NCBI GenBank assembly: GCA_016290325.1
Contig: JAEETL010000009.1
Coordinates: forward strand, 1 to 64,000
Origin: Muribaculaceae bacterium
GTDB lineage: Bacteria; Bacteroidota; Bacteroidia; Bacteroidales; Muribaculaceae
DNA: 64,000 nucleotides
Direction of reading: 5' to 3'
A program made the translations under genes and the position numbers. How positions within the stretch are numbered: the stretch's first letter is position 1; the number at the start of each line of letters is the position of its first letter. Below, in pieces: positions 26,886-52,973 of this stretch. The notes beneath the pieces are model-generated. The model had not been told where the DNA came from. It searched no databases and saw only the letters and a program-made list of their open reading frames with translations.

Positions 26886-26953
26886 TGAATAGAGTCTATT
26901 ATGGTCAAAAAGAGATTTTTATATCTTTTGAGTGTTATTCAATTATATATTCA

Positions 26954-26961
26954 TAAATTTG
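26954..26961 (+). promoter_or_regulatory. -7 box of the first C10 protease gene
   Basis: TAAATTTG, 47 bases before the ATG at 27009, with TTTG at 26927-26930 (23-base spacing, slightly long). Confidence 0.45.
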
Positions 26962-27008
26962 CAGAATCCAATTGTTTGGAAAAGTGTTCTGATTATTATT
27001 TTTATAGG

Positions 27009-29681
27009 ATGATGAATTCCTTAAAACAGATTTTATTGGCTGCTTCTGTTCTAGTGACTATGAGCATGACTGCAGCCCCATTGGATGCGCCCTCGGCCCA
27101 AGCCAAGGCGTATCAACTCCTGAACTCTCATGGTGTTGCCAAACTCAATGCCGGCAACTCAATGTTGAGACTTAGTCATGTCGAGTCGTCGGTAATTGAT
27201 TCTCGTTGCGCTGACTACTATGTGTTTAACTCTACCGACGGCAAAGCCTTTGTCATTGTTGCTGGCGATGACCGTGCTGAAGAAATCTTGGGCTATGGTG
27301 AGGGTTCTCTTGACATGACTGACCTGCCTTGCAACCTGCAATGGTGGCTTGACCAATACAAGCAACAGATAGAGTTCCTGCTTGCCAACCCGAATGAAAA
27401 AGTGGAAAAAGCATCGGCACCGCGACTTGATGGTAACGGTCAACTCGTGATAGCCCCAATGCTTACCTGCATTTGGAGTCAAAGTGAACCCTATTACAAC
27501 CAGTGCCCTATATACAAGGGTGAACGTTGTGTGACTGGATGTGTCGCTACTGCTATGGCCCAAGTTATGTATTACTGGCGTTACCCCGATCATATTAACG
27601 GCGTTCCAGGCTATTGGTGCCGTTCATTGGGCACGATGCTCTCAGGTTTGCCTGCCACAGCTTTCGACTGGGAAAATATGTTGGATTCCTATACCGGTGA
27701 ATATACTAATGCCCAAGGCGACGCTGTCGCCAAGTTGATGCGTTATTGCGGCCAATCTTGCAACATGGGTTACGGCCCTGATGGCAGCGGTGCTTATGTC
27801 CCTGACCAGTTGCGCGGTATGAAGCTATTTGGTTATAACTCTAATGCCACGATGGTTAATTGGTCGGATTATGACCTTGAGGCATGGGAAGATATGTTGC
27901 TTGGTGACTTGCAATCGGGCTACCCCGTGCTCTATTCCGGCAATGACCCCATGGCAGGAGGTCATGCCTTTGTCCTTGACGGTTATTTTGATGGAAAATA
28001 CCACATTAACTGGGGCTGGGCATCCAACGGCAATGGATACTTCGCGTTGGGCGCGTTTAACGTCAGGACTTATTCATTTAATGCCAATGTCCAGATGCTG
28101 CATCAGATCTATCCTTCACAAGAGATGATCCCTGAACCTGGAAATGATTTTGTGCAGAATGGCATCTATTATAAGTATAACGAGGATGCATCCGAGGCCA
28201 TCGTGACTTATATGGATACACGCTTCAACTCTTATGAGGGACAGGTCGTCATTCCCGCTCAGGTTACCCATCAGGGAGAGACCGTCCCTGTGACTGGTAT
28301 CGGCAAGAGTGCATTCAGGAATTGCGTTGATTTGGTGAGCGTGACCATACCAGCTAGTGTCAAGTATATTGATGATTATGCATTCAGGAATTGCATCGGG
28401 TTGGTCGAGATTGAAATTCCTGCGGGAGTTGAATCTATTGGTAATCAAGCTTTTACAAATTGCATGAGCTTGGAGCGCATATCATTCTTGGGGAATGTTG
28501 AATTTATTGGAGATGAGGCGTTTAGAGATTGCTCTGCCTTGACTAGGGTTGAGGTGCCAAGTGCTGAATCATGGCTTGGAATAGCTTTTGCCGGCCATTA
28601 CTCTAACCCCCTCAGTTATTCTCATCATCTCTATGTCAACGGTCAGGATTTGGAACATCTGGTTGTTCCTCAGTCAATTCAGGAAGTTAAACCATTTGCA
28701 TTTATCGAATGTACTGGCTTGAAGTCGGTGGTTGTAGAAGATGGCGTTACTGATATCGGCACGGCTGCGTTTTCTAATTGTACTTATATCACCTCAGTGT
28801 CATTGCCTCAAACGATGAACGCCATCGGAAAGCAGGTGTTCTTTGATTGTAGCGCTCTGACCGGTATTGACATTCCAGAGAATATCACTTCAATCGGGAA
28901 TGCCGCTTTCAGTGGCTGTACTTCTTTGGAGAGAGTGGTACTACCCTCGACAATGACAACGATTAGCGATCAAGCGTTCAGTGACTGCAAAATGTTGACT
29001 GATATGATTCTTCCGAATTCTGTCACCGAGGTGGGTAGTTCTGCCTTCTCGGGCTGCTCCTCACTGAACCATGTGACGTTGTCGTCTTCACTGGTGGCTT
29101 TGAACAGTAAAGTGTTCTCGGGCTGCTCCAAGTTGTCACATATTTCGATACCGTCATCAGTTACTCTTATTGCATCAAGTGCTTTCATGCAATGCTCCTC
29201 GTTAACAAAGGTGGTAATACCCGATGGAGTTACTATGGTTGGCGAGCGTGCGTTCGGTGTGTGCTCTAAGCTCGTCGAGGTAACGATAGGCAGCGGAGTG
29301 CAGATGGTGGACGCTAATGCTTTCTTTTTTTGTAAGGCTTTGACTTCGGTGACTTGCAAGGCCGAAAATCCGCCACTGACGCCAGGAAACGATAATACAT
29401 TCCCAAGTATTGTATATGATAATGCCATCCTGTATGTTCCAGAGGGTTGCTTACAGGCTTATAAGAACAGTGGAATTTGGCCCTGGTTCAAGCACATCGA
29501 GATTATTCCTGAGTTTATGCAGGGTGATGTGAATCATGATAAGGAAATTAACATCAGTGATGTGAGTGCGATTATTGATATCATGCTTAATACCGGAGGT
29601 GATAATTCCGGAGACGTGAATGGTGATGGCGAGGTCAACATTGCCGATATCAATGCCGTCATCGACCTCATGTTATCGTAA
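27009..29681 (+). CDS. C10 cysteine protease with BspA-type LRRs and dockerin-like tail
   Basis: An 890-residue secreted protein. Signal peptide to about TAAP, then a Spi-type propeptide (YVFNSTDGKAFVIVAGDDRAEEILGYG, quoted family region). A C10 (streptopain) catalytic domain follows with Cys 178 in TGCVATAMAQVM and His 319 in GGHAFVLDGYFDGKYHINWGW. Residues about 430-810 carry roughly a dozen LRR_5/BspA repeats (IGKSAFRNCVDLVSVTIPASV type). The last 60 residues hold two dockerin-like repeats (GDVNHDKEINISD, GDVNGDGEVNIAD). Predicted role: a surface or secreted protease with an adhesive repeat region. A longer frame from 26901 was rejected because it crosses the promoter and lacks a signal peptide. 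A paralogue follows in tandem. Confidence 0.92.
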   Translation: MMNSLKQILLAASVLVTMSMTAAPLDAPSAQAKAYQLLNSHGVAKLNAGNSMLRLSHVESSVIDSRCADYYVFNSTDGKAFVIVAGDDRAEEILGYGEGSLDMTDLPCNLQWWLDQYKQQIEFLLANPNEKVEKASAPRLDGNGQLVIAPMLTCIWSQSEPYYNQCPIYKGERCVTGCVATAMAQVMYYWRYPDHINGVPGYWCRSLGTMLSGLPATAFDWENMLDSYTGEYTNAQGDAVAKLMRYCGQSCNMGYGPDGSGAYVPDQLRGMKLFGYNSNATMVNWSDYDLEAWEDMLLGDLQSGYPVLYSGNDPMAGGHAFVLDGYFDGKYHINWGWASNGNGYFALGAFNVRTYSFNANVQMLHQIYPSQEMIPEPGNDFVQNGIYYKYNEDASEAIVTYMDTRFNSYEGQVVIPAQVTHQGETVPVTGIGKSAFRNCVDLVSVTIPASVKYIDDYAFRNCIGLVEIEIPAGVESIGNQAFTNCMSLERISFLGNVEFIGDEAFRDCSALTRVEVPSAESWLGIAFAGHYSNPLSYSHHLYVNGQDLEHLVVPQSIQEVKPFAFIECTGLKSVVVEDGVTDIGTAAFSNCTYITSVSLPQTMNAIGKQVFFDCSALTGIDIPENITSIGNAAFSGCTSLERVVLPSTMTTISDQAFSDCKMLTDMILPNSVTEVGSSAFSGCSSLNHVTLSSSLVALNSKVFSGCSKLSHISIPSSVTLIASSAFMQCSSLTKVVIPDGVTMVGERAFGVCSKLVEVTIGSGVQMVDANAFFFCKALTSVTCKAENPPLTPGNDNTFPSIVYDNAILYVPEGCLQAYKNSGIWPWFKHIEIIPEFMQGDVNHDKEINISDVSAIIDIMLNTGGDNSGDVNGDGEVNIADINAVIDLMLS

Positions 29682-29931: not shown

Positions 29932-32916
29932 ATGATGAGACATGTTACATTAAAAATCATGCTATTGGCAGCCTTTGCCCTGATGGTTAAGAGGGTAGGC
30001 GCTGCCAGTGTGGATGCCGACGCGGCACGGTCGCGGGCATCAAGTTTCCTGCAATCGCAGCGTCAGGGTCGTTTGTCTGCCCCCAATGTTGCCTTGCGGC
30101 TAGCCCATGCCGAGCCCTCGACGGTGAGCGCTGGGCAGACGGCTTACTATGTGTTTAATTCCGAGGGCGGTGATGCCTTTGTCATCGTGGCTGGCGATGA
30201 CCGAGCCGTACAGATTCTTGCCTATGGTGACGAGGCACTAGACATGGCCAATTTGCCCTCTAATCTGCAATGGTGGCTTGGCCAGTACAAGGCTCAAATC
30301 GAGTGGCTTGTCGAGCAGCCCGAAGTCGTAGCTCCTGCACCAGTTAGAGCCCGTGCCGACGATGTGGTCATTGAGCCTCTCTTAAAGACGATATGGCATC
30401 AAAGCACACCTTTTAATGACATGTGCCCAGTAATTGATGGTGAGGCATCTGCTACGGGATGTGTTGCCACGGCGATGGCTCAGGTGATGAATTACTGGAA
30501 GTATCCAGCACAGGTTCCTCCATTGCCTGGATATGTGACTGATACAGAACATTATAATGTTCCATCGTTGCCTAGTGCCGAATTGGAATGGGATTATATT
30601 TTGGATGTGTACAATCCAGGGGATTACAATGAGGAAGAAGCAGTTGCTGTGGCCACATTACTGAGGTATTGCGGCCAGGGGTGTTTCATGGACTATAGTC
30701 CTATGGGCAGTGGCGCATGGCAAGAAGATCAACTCATGGCGCTAAAGCAATTTGGTTACAACCATGAGGCCCAGTGTCTGTACCGTGATGAATGTGAAGA
30801 CGTGCAATGGCACGCGATGATCATGGAGGAGTTATCTAATGACCGTCCTGTTCTTTACACAGGAACCAGCTTTGGCGGTGCCCATGCCTTTGTCCTTGAT
30901 GGTTATAAAGACGGCAAGTACCATGTCAACTGGGGATGGGGAGGCGGAAACGGATATTTTGTCTTGGATGCCTTAGGTAGAGATGATTGGGAGTTTAATT
31001 ATTATCAAACGATGCAATATCATGTATATCCTGACCCTGAGGGTAATTCGGTACAATCTTACGACTTTGAGGTCTCGGGAATCTATTACAAGCGCAATGG
31101 AGATGCTGCCGAGGTGGTCAGGAGAGATATTATGCATAATTGCTACTCTGGTTCAATCGTCATCCCCGAGACGGTGACTCTCGATGGAGAGACCCTAGCT
31201 GTCACTTCCATCGCGCCCTATGCATTTATGGACTGTATGGAGGTGACCGATATCCTGCTTCCGCCTTCGGTTACAAATATTGGTGCCAATGCTTTTTACC
31301 GTTGCTCAGCAATGACGACAATACGCATCCAGGGCAAAAACAAGAGACTTGGCAAAGATGCATTTGCCGACTGTTATGGGCTTAGCGAGGTGTATACTGA
31401 TGATGTCGAATCATGGGCGACTATGGAGTTTGTCTCTAGATGTTCTTGTCCGTTGGTATATGGTCCCATGCTTTTTGACAAGAAGGGTAATGCGATAACC
31501 GATGTGCTCATTCCCGCCTCGGTTGATAAAGTTGGGAATTATTTGTTTACCAATTATGACTATCTTAAGAGCGTGTTAATTGAGGAGGGGGTCACTGCGA
31601 TAGGCCACGACTCTTTCTATGGATGCGATGAGATGACAAGTGTCACGTTGCCGCAATCGTTGCGATCGATAGGTGATGATGCATTTGACGGTTGTACCCA
31701 ATTGAGTGATCTCATATTGCCACCGTTTCTGGAGTCTATCGGTGTGTATGCATTCTATGCCTGTGAAAGTCTGACTCATGTTGACATTCCTGGGTCGGTG
31801 AGCGTTTTGGGTGATGTCTCATTTGGCGCTTGTACAAATTTGGCTCAGGTGACTTTAAATTCTGGCCTTACCCGTGTGGGTGAATATGCTTTCTACTATT
31901 GTCTCTCGTTGAATGATGTGATACTGCCCAGCACTGTAACCTCAATAGGCTATGCTGCTTTTGATGGGTGCTCCAATTTGTCCAATGTCACATTAAACGA
32001 CAATTTGCAAGAATTGGAGGATTTTGCCTTCAATGATTGTCCGAGCTTACAGAAAATCGTTATTCCTTCAAGTGTTACCCTCATTGGCATTGGTGCATTT
32101 ATAGGCTGTTCATCGCTTGCTACAATTGTTTTGGATGGCTGTTCATCTCATGTGGACTCAAACGCTTTCATGTCGTGTTCCCAACTGGCTCGTGTCGAGA
32201 TCAGGGATTTGCTCTCATGGTGCAATATGACCTTTGAAAATGATCAGGCCAATCCGCTATATTTTGCCCACCACCTGTTTATGAACGGTGAGGAAGTGTG
32301 CGACCTGGCTATACCCGCTGGCGTTAAACATATTAATGATTATGCGTTTATCCGTTGTGAGAGTTTGACCAGTCTCACGATGAGTAATGATGTGGAAAGC
32401 GTTGGTGAACAAGCATTTAAAGATTGCAAAAAAATGACTGTCGCAACTTTGGGTGACGGGGTGCGTACTATTGGCGAGAAAGCTTTTCATGGTTGCTCAA
32501 AATTGATGGATTTCACCTTCGGTAAGAGAATGAAAATGGCCGAGATGTATGCTTTCAGGTCCTGCAATGCGTTAGTAAAAATCACTAGTCGTGCTGTTAC
32601 ACCGCCTTATCTTAAGGGCAAGTCAATTTTCCCAGACAAGGTGTATAAAAACGCCATTGTCTATGCTCCTAGGCAGTCTCTTCGCGCTTATCGGGAGGCA
32701 CTGGTGTGGCGATACTTCGATATTGAGGGTGTGAACTTCATGCCCGAGTGGTGTGATGTGAACGGTGACGGCGAGGTCAATATCAGTGATGTTACTGCGA
32801 TTATTGACATACAACATAAAGGAGGTGTCGACATAGTGGGCGATGTGAACGGTGATGAAGAGGTTAACATTTCGGATATCAATGCCGTCATCGATTATAT
32901 AATAACAGGAGAATGA
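29932..32916 (+). CDS. C10 cysteine protease with BspA-type LRRs and dockerin-like tail (paralogue)
   Basis: A 994-residue paralogue of the preceding gene with the same order of parts. A signal peptide ends near VGAAS. The Spi-like propeptide includes YVFNSEGGDAFVIVAGDDRA. The catalytic Cys 177 is in TGCVATAMAQVMNYW and His 318 in GGAHAFVLDGYKDGKYHVNWGWG. A longer LRR_5 array follows (about residues 415-930). Two dockerin-like repeats close the protein (CDVNGDGEVNISD, GDVNGDEEVNISD). The LRR array has two 'DVESW.T..F / LLSW...F' insert segments where the repeat phase breaks. Tandem duplication followed by divergence is the simplest origin. It has its own promoter and a terminator. Confidence 0.92.
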   Translation: MMRHVTLKIMLLAAFALMVKRVGAASVDADAARSRASSFLQSQRQGRLSAPNVALRLAHAEPSTVSAGQTAYYVFNSEGGDAFVIVAGDDRAVQILAYGDEALDMANLPSNLQWWLGQYKAQIEWLVEQPEVVAPAPVRARADDVVIEPLLKTIWHQSTPFNDMCPVIDGEASATGCVATAMAQVMNYWKYPAQVPPLPGYVTDTEHYNVPSLPSAELEWDYILDVYNPGDYNEEEAVAVATLLRYCGQGCFMDYSPMGSGAWQEDQLMALKQFGYNHEAQCLYRDECEDVQWHAMIMEELSNDRPVLYTGTSFGGAHAFVLDGYKDGKYHVNWGWGGGNGYFVLDALGRDDWEFNYYQTMQYHVYPDPEGNSVQSYDFEVSGIYYKRNGDAAEVVRRDIMHNCYSGSIVIPETVTLDGETLAVTSIAPYAFMDCMEVTDILLPPSVTNIGANAFYRCSAMTTIRIQGKNKRLGKDAFADCYGLSEVYTDDVESWATMEFVSRCSCPLVYGPMLFDKKGNAITDVLIPASVDKVGNYLFTNYDYLKSVLIEEGVTAIGHDSFYGCDEMTSVTLPQSLRSIGDDAFDGCTQLSDLILPPFLESIGVYAFYACESLTHVDIPGSVSVLGDVSFGACTNLAQVTLNSGLTRVGEYAFYYCLSLNDVILPSTVTSIGYAAFDGCSNLSNVTLNDNLQELEDFAFNDCPSLQKIVIPSSVTLIGIGAFIGCSSLATIVLDGCSSHVDSNAFMSCSQLARVEIRDLLSWCNMTFENDQANPLYFAHHLFMNGEEVCDLAIPAGVKHINDYAFIRCESLTSLTMSNDVESVGEQAFKDCKKMTVATLGDGVRTIGEKAFHGCSKLMDFTFGKRMKMAEMYAFRSCNALVKITSRAVTPPYLKGKSIFPDKVYKNAIVYAPRQSLRAYREALVWRYFDIEGVNFMPEWCDVNGDGEVNISDVTAIIDIQHKGGVDIVGDVNGDEEVNISDINAVIDYIITGE

Positions 32917-49843: not shown

Positions 49844-49890
49844 CAACCGAGAGTTAACCCGTTTTTATCAACTTGAAAAATTTGACTGAT

Positions 49891-51615
49891 ATGAAACGTT
49901 ATTGGATATTTAGCACATTGTGCATCGTGGTATTGATGACCGGCCTCCTGGCTTTTGCCAGCAATGGCAACCATTTGAATAATAGTGAGCAGAGCGAGAA
50001 ACAGGATATCGCATCTACCGAATCTCAAGTCGAGATGCCTAATGACAACCCGATGACCGCATCCCCAGTAGGGATGCTAGATAACAACAATGATTTTGCC
50101 TGTAACCTGTTCCGCACTATCAACGAGCAGAAAGGTGGAGGAAAAAGCACCATCGTGTCGCCCATCAGCGTGAGCTATGTGCTGGGCATGCTTAACGAGG
50201 GAGCCGACGGCGAGACGCGCCGGCAGATAACCGATGTACTTGGGCTAGGAGGCACGGTGCAGGAGATCAACGAATATTTCAAAAAGATGATGCATAAAGC
50301 CCAATCTGTTGACCCAAGTGTGACATTAAAAACTGCTAACAGCATCTTCGTCGTTTCGGGTAAAAGGCTCATCCCACAGTACAAAGCTGACATGCAAAAC
50401 TATTATGACGCCCAAGTTGAAGCGATTAACTTCAACTCAGGCAACATTGTAAATAAAATCAACAATTGGTGCAAGGTCCACACCGACGGCATGATACCAG
50501 AAATCCTGGAAAAGGGCGAACTCAACCCCAATCGCTTGATGTATCTGTTGAACGCCGTCTATTTCAAGGCTTCGTGGACCGATCAATTTGACCCCAGGAG
50601 CACTCGAGGCTTGGACTTTATTACGCATGACGGCAAAACCGTCAAGCGGCCGATGATGCACCGCGAAGGTATGGCCGCCTACGGCAAGAACGACTTGTGC
50701 AAAATGCTATGCCTGCCCTACGGTAACAAAGCCTACAGCATGGTTGTGTTGCTCCCCAACGAGGGCAAGACGACCGACGATATCATCTGGAATCTCTCGG
50801 CACAGAAACTGAAAGAGTGGCAGTCACAAATGAGGACTCAAGACGTCGATATCCTGATGCCTCGCTTCACTACCGAAAGCGAGACACGTCTTGAGGATAT
50901 ACTTTCGTCGATGGGCATGCAACGAGCATTCAATAATGCAGCTGAATTTCCCAATATGCTCAAGGGTTATCATGACGAATTGTATGTGTCGATGATGAAG
51001 CAGAAGGCCAAAATCGAGGTCAACGAAGAGGGAACAAAAGCCGCTGCCACAACGGTAGCTGAAATGGCAGAAATAGGAGTGGTCTTTTATAAGTACTTCT
51101 ACGCTACGCGGCCATTTGTATATTACATCGTGGAAAAAAGCACTGGCTCCATCTACTTTATGGGCACCTATTGTTTCGACGAAAATGGTGAACCGGTGAC
51201 CATAAAAGAACCACTTGAGGAGCGTGAAATAGAATTGAATAGGCCTATTGGAAATGGCGTGAAGCAAAATGACGTGAAGCGAAAAGAAAATGAAATCTTC
51301 AAGTCAGTAGAGCAGATGCCTCAATTTCCCGGTGGTGAGGCAGCTCTGATGGAATACATTGAAAGTCACATCCAGTGGCCGCCCAGGGCTGCCTGCGCCC
51401 AGGGTCGCGTCATTGTGCAATTTGTTGTTGACAAGACTGGTGAAATTGGTGAAGTGAAGGTTGTCCGCTCGGTGGACAAGGACCTAGACGAGGAGGCTGT
51501 TCGCATTGTTAAGACGCTACCCAAGTTCATTCCAGGCCGCCAAAATGGTCGGGCCGTGAGTGTATGGTACACCTTGCCCGTGACATTCAAGTTGTCGTCA
51601 GTTCGACAAAAATAA
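49891..51615 (+). CDS. Secreted serpin fused to a TonB C-terminal domain
   Basis: A 574-residue exported protein. A signal or anchor segment (RYWIFSTLCIVVLMTGLLAFA) is followed by a Glu/Asn-rich linker and a full serpin domain (about residues 70-445): STIVSPISVSYVLGMLNEGA, the KINNWCKVHTDGMIPEIL region, LNAVYFKASWTDQF, and the hinge EVNEEGTKAAATT, with small residues typical of inhibitory serpins. The reactive loop continues AEMAEIGVVFYKYF, and the domain ends RPFVYYIVEKSTGSIYFMG. Residues about 473-574 form a TonB_C domain (MPQFPGGEAALMEYIE, VIVQFVVDKTGEIGEVKVVRS, LPVTFKL). I know of no standard serpin-TonB_C protein. The tail resembles that of the next gene. ATG 49891 was preferred to TTG 49873. 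P1 cannot be fixed by eye. Confidence 0.9.
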   Translation: MKRYWIFSTLCIVVLMTGLLAFASNGNHLNNSEQSEKQDIASTESQVEMPNDNPMTASPVGMLDNNNDFACNLFRTINEQKGGGKSTIVSPISVSYVLGMLNEGADGETRRQITDVLGLGGTVQEINEYFKKMMHKAQSVDPSVTLKTANSIFVVSGKRLIPQYKADMQNYYDAQVEAINFNSGNIVNKINNWCKVHTDGMIPEILEKGELNPNRLMYLLNAVYFKASWTDQFDPRSTRGLDFITHDGKTVKRPMMHREGMAAYGKNDLCKMLCLPYGNKAYSMVVLLPNEGKTTDDIIWNLSAQKLKEWQSQMRTQDVDILMPRFTTESETRLEDILSSMGMQRAFNNAAEFPNMLKGYHDELYVSMMKQKAKIEVNEEGTKAAATTVAEMAEIGVVFYKYFYATRPFVYYIVEKSTGSIYFMGTYCFDENGEPVTIKEPLEEREIELNRPIGNGVKQNDVKRKENEIFKSVEQMPQFPGGEAALMEYIESHIQWPPRAACAQGRVIVQFVVDKTGEIGEVKVVRSVDKDLDEEAVRIVKTLPKFIPGRQNGRAVSVWYTLPVTFKLSSVRQK

Positions 51616-51859: not shown

Positions 51860-51881
51860 TATCTCAAAAAATAATGTGATG

Positions 51882-52550
51882 ATGAAACACGGTAAATATA
51901 TCTGTAACGCGCTCAAGGCAATCCGTCTTGACATCGCGCGCGCCAATGGCATCGAGTACACACCCCGCGAGTGTCACCACGAGGGTGATTGTTCAGGCAC
52001 CTGTCCCGCCTGTGAGAGTGAAATGCGCTACCTGGAGCGGGAAATCGCCCGCAAGCGTCCTCATAACAAGGCGGCCCTGATGACGGGTGTGAGCCTGGCG
52101 TTGTCTGGCCTGTCGGCTATGGCAACCAGTGCCCCGTCTAGCGAGGCCCTGATGTCCAGTTATAGCTGTCAGAGCCAAGTGTGCGACACGACACAGCGAG
52201 CGGAAATCTTCGGGGAAATCCATGAAACGATGCCCTATTTCCGTGGAGGAAACAGTGCCTTGATGAAGTACCTCAGCGATAACGTTGTCTATCCACCTGA
52301 AGCCATCAAGGACAGCATACAGGGAACGGTAATCGTGCAGTTGCTCATTGAAAGGAATGGCGAGGTCAACGAGGTGAAGGTTGTCCGTTCAGTTCATGAA
52401 TTGCTCGACAACGAAGCCGTCCGCGTCTGCAAGTCATTGCCCAAATTCTTCCCCGGTAGCCATGGTGGTCGTGCGGTTGCGATGTGGTTAACACTGCCTA
52501 TCACCTTCAAAATGGAGGACAAGAGCCAATTGGAATCAACTGAAGACTAA
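51882..52550 (+). CDS. TonB-like protein with cytosolic Cys/His cluster
   Basis: A 222-residue membrane protein. The N-terminal cytosolic part (LKAIRLDIARANGIEY) leads to ECHHEGDCSGTCPACESEMRYLE: four Cys and two His within 15 residues, a plausible zinc knuckle. A single hydrophobic segment (AALMTGVSLALSGLSAMA, about 65-83) follows. The periplasmic C-terminal domain is TonB_C (PYFRGGNSALMKYLSDNV, TVIVQLLIERNGEVNEVKVVRS, LPITFKM). Predicted to contact TonB-dependent receptors or outer-membrane partners. ATG 51882 aligns exactly with the paralogue's start; GTG and ATG codons just upstream add two Met only. Confidence 0.87.
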   Translation: MKHGKYICNALKAIRLDIARANGIEYTPRECHHEGDCSGTCPACESEMRYLEREIARKRPHNKAALMTGVSLALSGLSAMATSAPSSEALMSSYSCQSQVCDTTQRAEIFGEIHETMPYFRGGNSALMKYLSDNVVYPPEAIKDSIQGTVIVQLLIERNGEVNEVKVVRSVHELLDNEAVRVCKSLPKFFPGSHGGRAVAMWLTLPITFKMEDKSQLESTED

Positions 52551-52565
52551 CTAAAGAAAACGGCT

Positions 52566-52973
52566 ATGAAGCACGGTAAACATCTCTGCAACACGCTCAA
52601 GGCGATTCGTCTTGACATTGCGCGTGCCAACGGTATCAAATACGAGCCACGCGAGTGTCACCATGAGGGTGATTGCTCGGGTACTTGCCCGGCATGTGAG
52701 AGCGAGATGCGCTACTTGGAACGTGAAATCGCCCGACGCCGCTCAAACGGCAAGGCCGCCCTCATTGCTGGCGTTAGCCTTGGCCTGATGTGTTTTACCG
52801 CCACGTCATGCAATCAACTGAATAAAGGTGGCAATGGTGGACTCCAGGGCGAGGTCGTACTCGTGGAGGATTCATGTGCTATGGATGACTCTATTGGCGA
52901 CGAGAGGATTGAATCTGGAAGAATAGTTGATACAACAGACAGCCATTTTGATTCACGTACATCTTGCCCCTAA
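52566..52973 (+). CDS. Paralogous Cys/His-cluster membrane protein lacking TonB_C
   Basis: A 135-residue protein whose first 65 residues nearly duplicate the preceding gene (MKHGKHLCNTLKAIRLDIARANGIKY, then ECHHEGDCSGTCPACESEMRYLE). A hydrophobic segment (ALIAGVSLGLMCFTATSC) ends in a Cys that resembles a lipobox. The remaining 50 residues are acidic and unstructured (VEDSCAMDDSIGDERIE). The TonB_C domain is absent. It begins 15 bases after its paralogue's stop, so it arose by tandem duplication and then replacement or loss of the periplasmic domain. Function unknown. Confidence 0.82.
   Translation: MKHGKHLCNTLKAIRLDIARANGIKYEPRECHHEGDCSGTCPACESEMRYLEREIARRRSNGKAALIAGVSLGLMCFTATSCNQLNKGGNGGLQGEVVLVEDSCAMDDSIGDERIESGRIVDTTDSHFDSRTSCP

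Follow-up and report, generated by a model that had tools for sequence, protein, structure and literature searches.

A serpin fused to a TonB C-terminal domain, possibly a protease trap tethered to the outer membrane from the periplasm

What would a protease inhibitor of the serpin family do with the C-terminal domain of TonB (TonB_C)? The question is raised by one gene in the window, by which we mean the whole 64,000-nucleotide stretch of DNA that was analyzed. Its features, and the gene that follows it, are listed here with the evidence for each in brackets.

49891..51615, + strand: serpin-TonB_C fusion gene, 574 aa (open frame, Pfam domains, relatives with the same arrangement)
49891..49959, + strand: N-terminal export signal, 23 aa, ending in AFA before SN, signal-peptidase-I-like (sequence and rule-based scans)
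50083..51171, + strand: serpin domain (PF00079, AlphaFold2 model, Foldseek)
51025..51054, + strand: inhibitory-type hinge EEGTKAAATT, P17-P8, residues 379-388 (sequence, alignment with relatives)
51055..51108, + strand: variable reactive-centre loop (loop alignment, P1 count, raised dN/dS, low pLDDT)
51175..51303, + strand: fast-evolving linker, largely predicted to be disordered (pLDDT, dN/dS)
51304..51600, + strand: TonB_C module with its SVEQMPQFPGG lead-in (PF03544, model, Foldseek, trees)
51876..52550, + strand: next gene, with a Cys-rich N-terminus and a TonB_C (Pfam; separate clade, AU test)

Pfam placed the serpin domain at residues 65-427 (E 9.8e-104, 347.9 bits, profile positions 2-367 of 370) and TonB_C at residues 497-568 (E 2e-17, 63.8 bits, profile positions 6-79 of 79), with the Pfam core of the latter at 51379-51594; both matches lie above the curated cut-offs. 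A TTG at 49873 is an alternative start that would add six residues. Inhibitory serpins have a hinge with glycine at P15, threonine or serine at P14, and small residues at P12-P9, and residues 381-387 of the window protein (G-T-K-A-A-A-T) agree with this consensus. If the hinge glycine is numbered P15, P1 falls on Ile395 (51073-51075). An earlier note on this DNA had described a single frame with a signal or anchor segment, a complete inhibitory-type serpin, and a TonB_C, and the open 574-aa frame and the Pfam domains confirmed that description. Its placement of the fusion in the periplasm is plausible too. The fusion is the sole serpin match in the source genome (a rumen-type Bacteroidales bacterium), which is about 92% complete and has six TonB_C matches, two of them within the window.

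AlphaFold2 modeled the whole protein from an 83-row alignment (mean pLDDT 82.3, pTM 0.68) as two folded domains with a largely disordered linker between them. The pLDDT fell below 50 in the loop (residues 386-398) and in the linker (residues 438-442 and 444-464). The serpin fold was a high-confidence domain, and the first Foldseek match was native miropin of Tannerella forsythia (PDB 5ncs; E 5.5e-37, TM by target 0.88), which is also the closest solved relative by sequence (E 1.1e-63). The solved chain of miropin (375 residues) has no TonB_C, whereas the window protein does. An excerpt of PMC4604654 suggests that miropin is surface exposed, with a fraction in the periplasm. Modeled alone, the TonB_C of the window protein reached a pLDDT of 89.4, and its best Foldseek match, the only one below 0.001, was a TonB in complex with the receptor FoxA (6i97_D, E 6.8e-04). 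The top 16 matches were all TonB-type domains, most with E above 0.001, and a profile built from 47 such TonB_C domains found TonBs among the solved structures (best E 3.1e-09).

Our search for further proteins with a serpin followed by TonB_C, which the earlier note had proposed, recovered 41 distinct ORFs with the same domain order from 101 genomes of the genus, one scan of public contigs, and stretches fetched later. So many ORFs of one order rule out an assembly join or a frameshift as the cause of the fusion. By a hand count of the listed rows, 30 of the 101 genus genomes carry it, and in a 31st (G047) the fusion gene is cut by a contig end. Among the 41, the TonB_C match of L096 is truncated, and L011, L022, L030, L032, and L100 are N-terminally incomplete. 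The public contigs with the fusion are labeled uncultured Prevotellaceae, Muribaculaceae, or Bacteroidales, several with mention of ruminant stomachs. Outside the genus, no serpin-TonB_C protein was among the best matches listed for 297 genomes of the family (a sample that includes members of the fusion's own genus), 393 of the order, and 395 of the phylum; because each search listed its best matches only, fusions with weaker or more remote matches may have gone unnoticed. Of six long serpin ORFs checked from these lists, those of G352 (520 aa), G505 (508 aa), G472 (491 aa), G879 (719 aa), and G1070 have nothing beyond the serpin, whereas in G154 the serpin is followed by a HIRAN domain instead of a TonB_C. 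This serpin-HIRAN protein (L138 1332-3362, HIRAN E 9.4e-11), from a different genus within the family, is a single 677-aa frame and an unusual serpin fusion as well. We found no description of a serpin fused to TonB_C in open-licence papers; the fusion is a new arrangement of known families.

Our tentative answer to the opening question is that the protein is an exported inhibitory serpin that its TonB_C keeps on the periplasmic face of the outer membrane, perhaps on TonB-dependent receptors. It would be a suicide protease inhibitor acting in the periplasm, offering a variable bait loop and trapping, through loop insertion, the protease that cuts it. The TonB_C, on its flexible linker, would tether the trap to the inside of the outer membrane, with the TonB boxes or plugs of TonB-dependent receptors as the most likely points of attachment. 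Proteases would then be caught where damage looms, either as they enter with nutrients or, if they are the cell's own, on their way out. We infer the trapping activity, the docking partner, and the target proteases of the fusion.

For the bait loop, we looked at the pattern of substitution in 35 aligned fused relatives, in three clades of 9, 10, and 8 rows. By pooled Nei-Gojobori counts over non-independent pairs, the serpin core (dN/dS 0.22, 0.23, and 0.25 in the three clades) and TonB_C (0.20, 0.25, and 0.15) are under similar purifying selection, and the loop beyond the hinge evolves faster (0.56, 1.14, and 0.53). The same counts gave 0.16, 0.07, and 0.45 for the hinge and 1.00, 0.54, and 0.83 for the linker. 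With the hinge glycine taken as P15, a P1 residue could be assigned in 39 of the 41 fusions: it is basic (Lys in 17, Arg in 1), hydrophobic (Ile in 4, the window protein included, Leu in 3, Phe in 1), acidic (Glu in 4, Asp in 6), or Gly, Ser, or Cys (1 each), single assignments being uncertain because insertions shift the count in some rows. In the relatives, several of the Lys P1 sites directly precede a serine. The many Lys sites, several with Ser next, hint at trypsin-like targets in these relatives. Such variation fits a bait loop that tracks changing proteases and is no proof of inhibition. An atypical hinge (GTEGTART or near) occurs in the fused serpins of L019, L020, L021, L024, L030, L096, and L100; the rows with Asp at P1 belong to this sub-lineage, which may be noninhibitory.

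As to possible targets, that the genome's own C10 proteases are something to guard against is speculation. The source genome has 25 C10 matches. The median is 24 in the 30 genomes with the fusion versus 8 in the 71 without it, figures uncorrected for shared ancestry, and 11 of those 71, including G047 with its cut gene, reach 19-28. C10-like ORFs turned up at five places in the loci, two of which are the same gene seen twice and one of which has no serpin; we claim no positional link between the fusion and C10 peptidases. Elsewhere in the window, 26901-29681 and 29932-32916 encode two C10 peptidases that combine a Spi-type (I69) inhibitor domain and BspA-type leucine-rich repeats with an end resembling a dockerin.

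Where did the TonB_C come from? The earlier note had it probably acquired by local duplication, the next gene carrying a very similar domain. The two domains of the locus are 55% identical when aligned, well below the 80% identity between the fusion's TonB_C and that of the ExbBD-linked TonB on contig C50 of the same genome; identity is 75% to the second TonB on that contig and 60% to an M56-TonB_C protein, also of this genome. In a tree of 85 TonB_C domains, a short domain that leaves many forks without resolution, the next gene's domain was placed apart from the fusion's, and a clade of both window domains was rejected (p-AU 3.6e-05). Local duplication is thus rejected. The segments KVVRS, GRAV, and LPxTFK that the note had seen in both genes are indeed common to them, but they recur across the aligned TonB_C rows. 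Of the note as a whole, the architecture stands, the periplasmic setting is plausible, and the proposed origin of TonB_C finds no support. Given the 80% identity and the separate clade of the next gene, a canonical TonB is the likely donor.

The next gene (51876-52550) and the one after it (52566-52973) are paired and have a Cys-rich N-terminus in common, CHHEGDCSGTCPACESEM; a TonB_C closes the first, and Pfam gave no match in the second. An ORF with TonB_C only lies on the same strand less than 500 bases downstream in 12 of the 41 fusion rows, many of which have little flank. Serpins stand in tandem at some fusion loci. Beside the fusion in L004, Pfam found a TonB_C, a CarboxypepD_reg-like domain, and a second TonB_C-like stretch in the ORF at 3-1277, and phmmer found similar ORFs in L015, L016, L018, L024, and L030.

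The company that TonB_C keeps gives rise to a different reading, in which it is a generic module for periplasmic retention or pairing, through peptidoglycan or self-association, with no role at receptors, so that the serpin is just retained. The domain occurs, in this genome and in relatives, on unrelated proteins: a BlaR1-type M56 peptidase, proteins with Cys-rich N-termini, and a CarboxypepD_reg protein. The M56 protein of this genome resembles the fusion in joining an unrelated domain to a C-terminal TonB_C and differs in belonging to a metallopeptidase family rather than to the serpins. Fusions without a lipid anchor would otherwise be freely soluble, which is a reason for retention. Against it, indirectly, the 80% identity to a canonical TonB together with purifying selection is what would be expected if the same partners were bound. 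We consider bare retention rather unlikely.

As to where the fusion works, we compared its N-terminus with those of unfused serpins in a rule-based scan for lipoboxes and export signals. We had 76 unfused serpins from several genera, 69 of them with a readable N-terminus, and 60 of the 69 have a lipobox. At least two acidic residues at +2 to +6 are present in 46 of these 60, a pattern resembling the surface-export signal described in an excerpt of PMC5080379. The fusions divide into a main group of 38 and a second group of 3. Within the large clade to which the main group belongs, 25 of 32 unfused serpins have a lipobox, all 25 with the acidic pattern. None of the 33 readable N-termini of main-group fusions has one, and the scan found no lipobox cysteine in the window protein. 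The lipoprotein serpins of the same and related genera are relatives of the fusion in the serpin tree but mostly carry a lipobox and have no TonB_C. From this contrast, we predict that the fused serpins face the periplasm and many unfused ones face outward, with few evolutionary events behind the difference.

The second-group fusions have a lipobox (3 of 3) without the acidic pair (0 of 3). Nine of the 69 unfused serpins lack a lipobox, and eight of the nine fall within or next to the main group (L012, among the eight, is truncated at the end of its contig). Being nonlipidated without any TonB_C, the nine count against a need for the domain. The simple idea that TonB_C replaces the lipid anchor was therefore borne out only in part: the second group keeps its lipobox in all three members, and eight unfused serpins near the main group do without one.

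The N-termini also bear on whether the protein could be a membrane-anchored, TonB-like transducer with a serpin in place of the spacer. Uncharged stretches of 19-21 residues begin part of the rows, and 6 of the 33 main-group N-termini have no clear cleavage site, so that some members may be membrane anchored; in the window protein, too, the N-terminus may be an uncleaved anchor instead of a cleaved signal. However, an AxA-like site closes the hydrophobic stretch in the other 27 by a loose rule and a hand count. The canonical TonB start seen in the genome's two TonBs is absent from the fusion, and those TonBs are adjoined by ExbB and ExbD on contig C50, where ExbB, two ExbD, and two ordinary TonB genes stand in a row (L102 8412-13082). 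In the C50 TonB, an N-terminal segment of its own and a long, acidic linker stand where the fusion has its serpin and shorter linker; since the fusion lacks the canonical N-terminal segment and the long linker, we do not expect it to be driven by the ExbBD motor. To judge by its sequence, the fusion is not an energy-transducing TonB, and a transducer role is improbable.

The conformational change of serpins is large. The protein might be a protease sensor, in which cleavage and that change alter the engagement of TonB_C and so report an attack or release a receptor, and the sensor-like M56-TonB_C protein in the same genome speaks for this. A largely disordered linker would nevertheless transmit little, and no signaling partner stands out among the neighbors, which were scanned for serpin and TonB_C only. 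We regard a sensor as quite improbable and return to the docked trap.

Did the fusion arise once? The second-group serpins (from genomes G006, G062, and G083; Pfam was run on one) are 34-35% identical to the window protein. The serpin tree places them among unfused sisters, and the TonB_C tree groups their TonB_C with TonB-type domains of their own lineage. A single origin of all fusions was rejected with both the TonB_C tree (p-AU 0.004) and the serpin tree, a "quick" tree (p-AU 2.8e-05), and the main group by itself was not rejected as one clade (AU 0.715 and 0.251, respectively), tests that are weakened because the groups were defined once the trees had already been inspected. The serpin-TonB_C fusion therefore appears to have arisen at least twice. 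In the second group, the serpins at L099 3971-5695 (fused) and L145 1257-2588 (unfused) are 87% identical and their N-termini nearly the same, while L099 and L098 group together by TonB_C. Such a pattern would be explained by an exchange of modules between paralogues or by additional gains. That the fusion is neutral and its TonB_C functionless, as the unfused serpins inside the main group and the truncated L096 match might suggest, is very improbable in view of the TonB_C dN/dS of 0.15-0.25 in three clades and the repeated origin.

A bolder idea, which we hold to be doubtful, is that TonB_C is a repeatedly evolved address label that turns surface inhibitors into periplasmic guards of receptors at the import gate, a TonB_C of the cell's own lineage being fused each time. 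For prokaryotic serpins, an excerpt of PMC8233489 reports no systematic trend between phylogenetic placement and cell location and function. Here, a predicted change of location can be traced inside one genus, and the accompanying fusion has more than one origin. If docking holds, the TonB domain would serve for targeting and not for energy transduction, and the place where the serpin acts would become directly testable.
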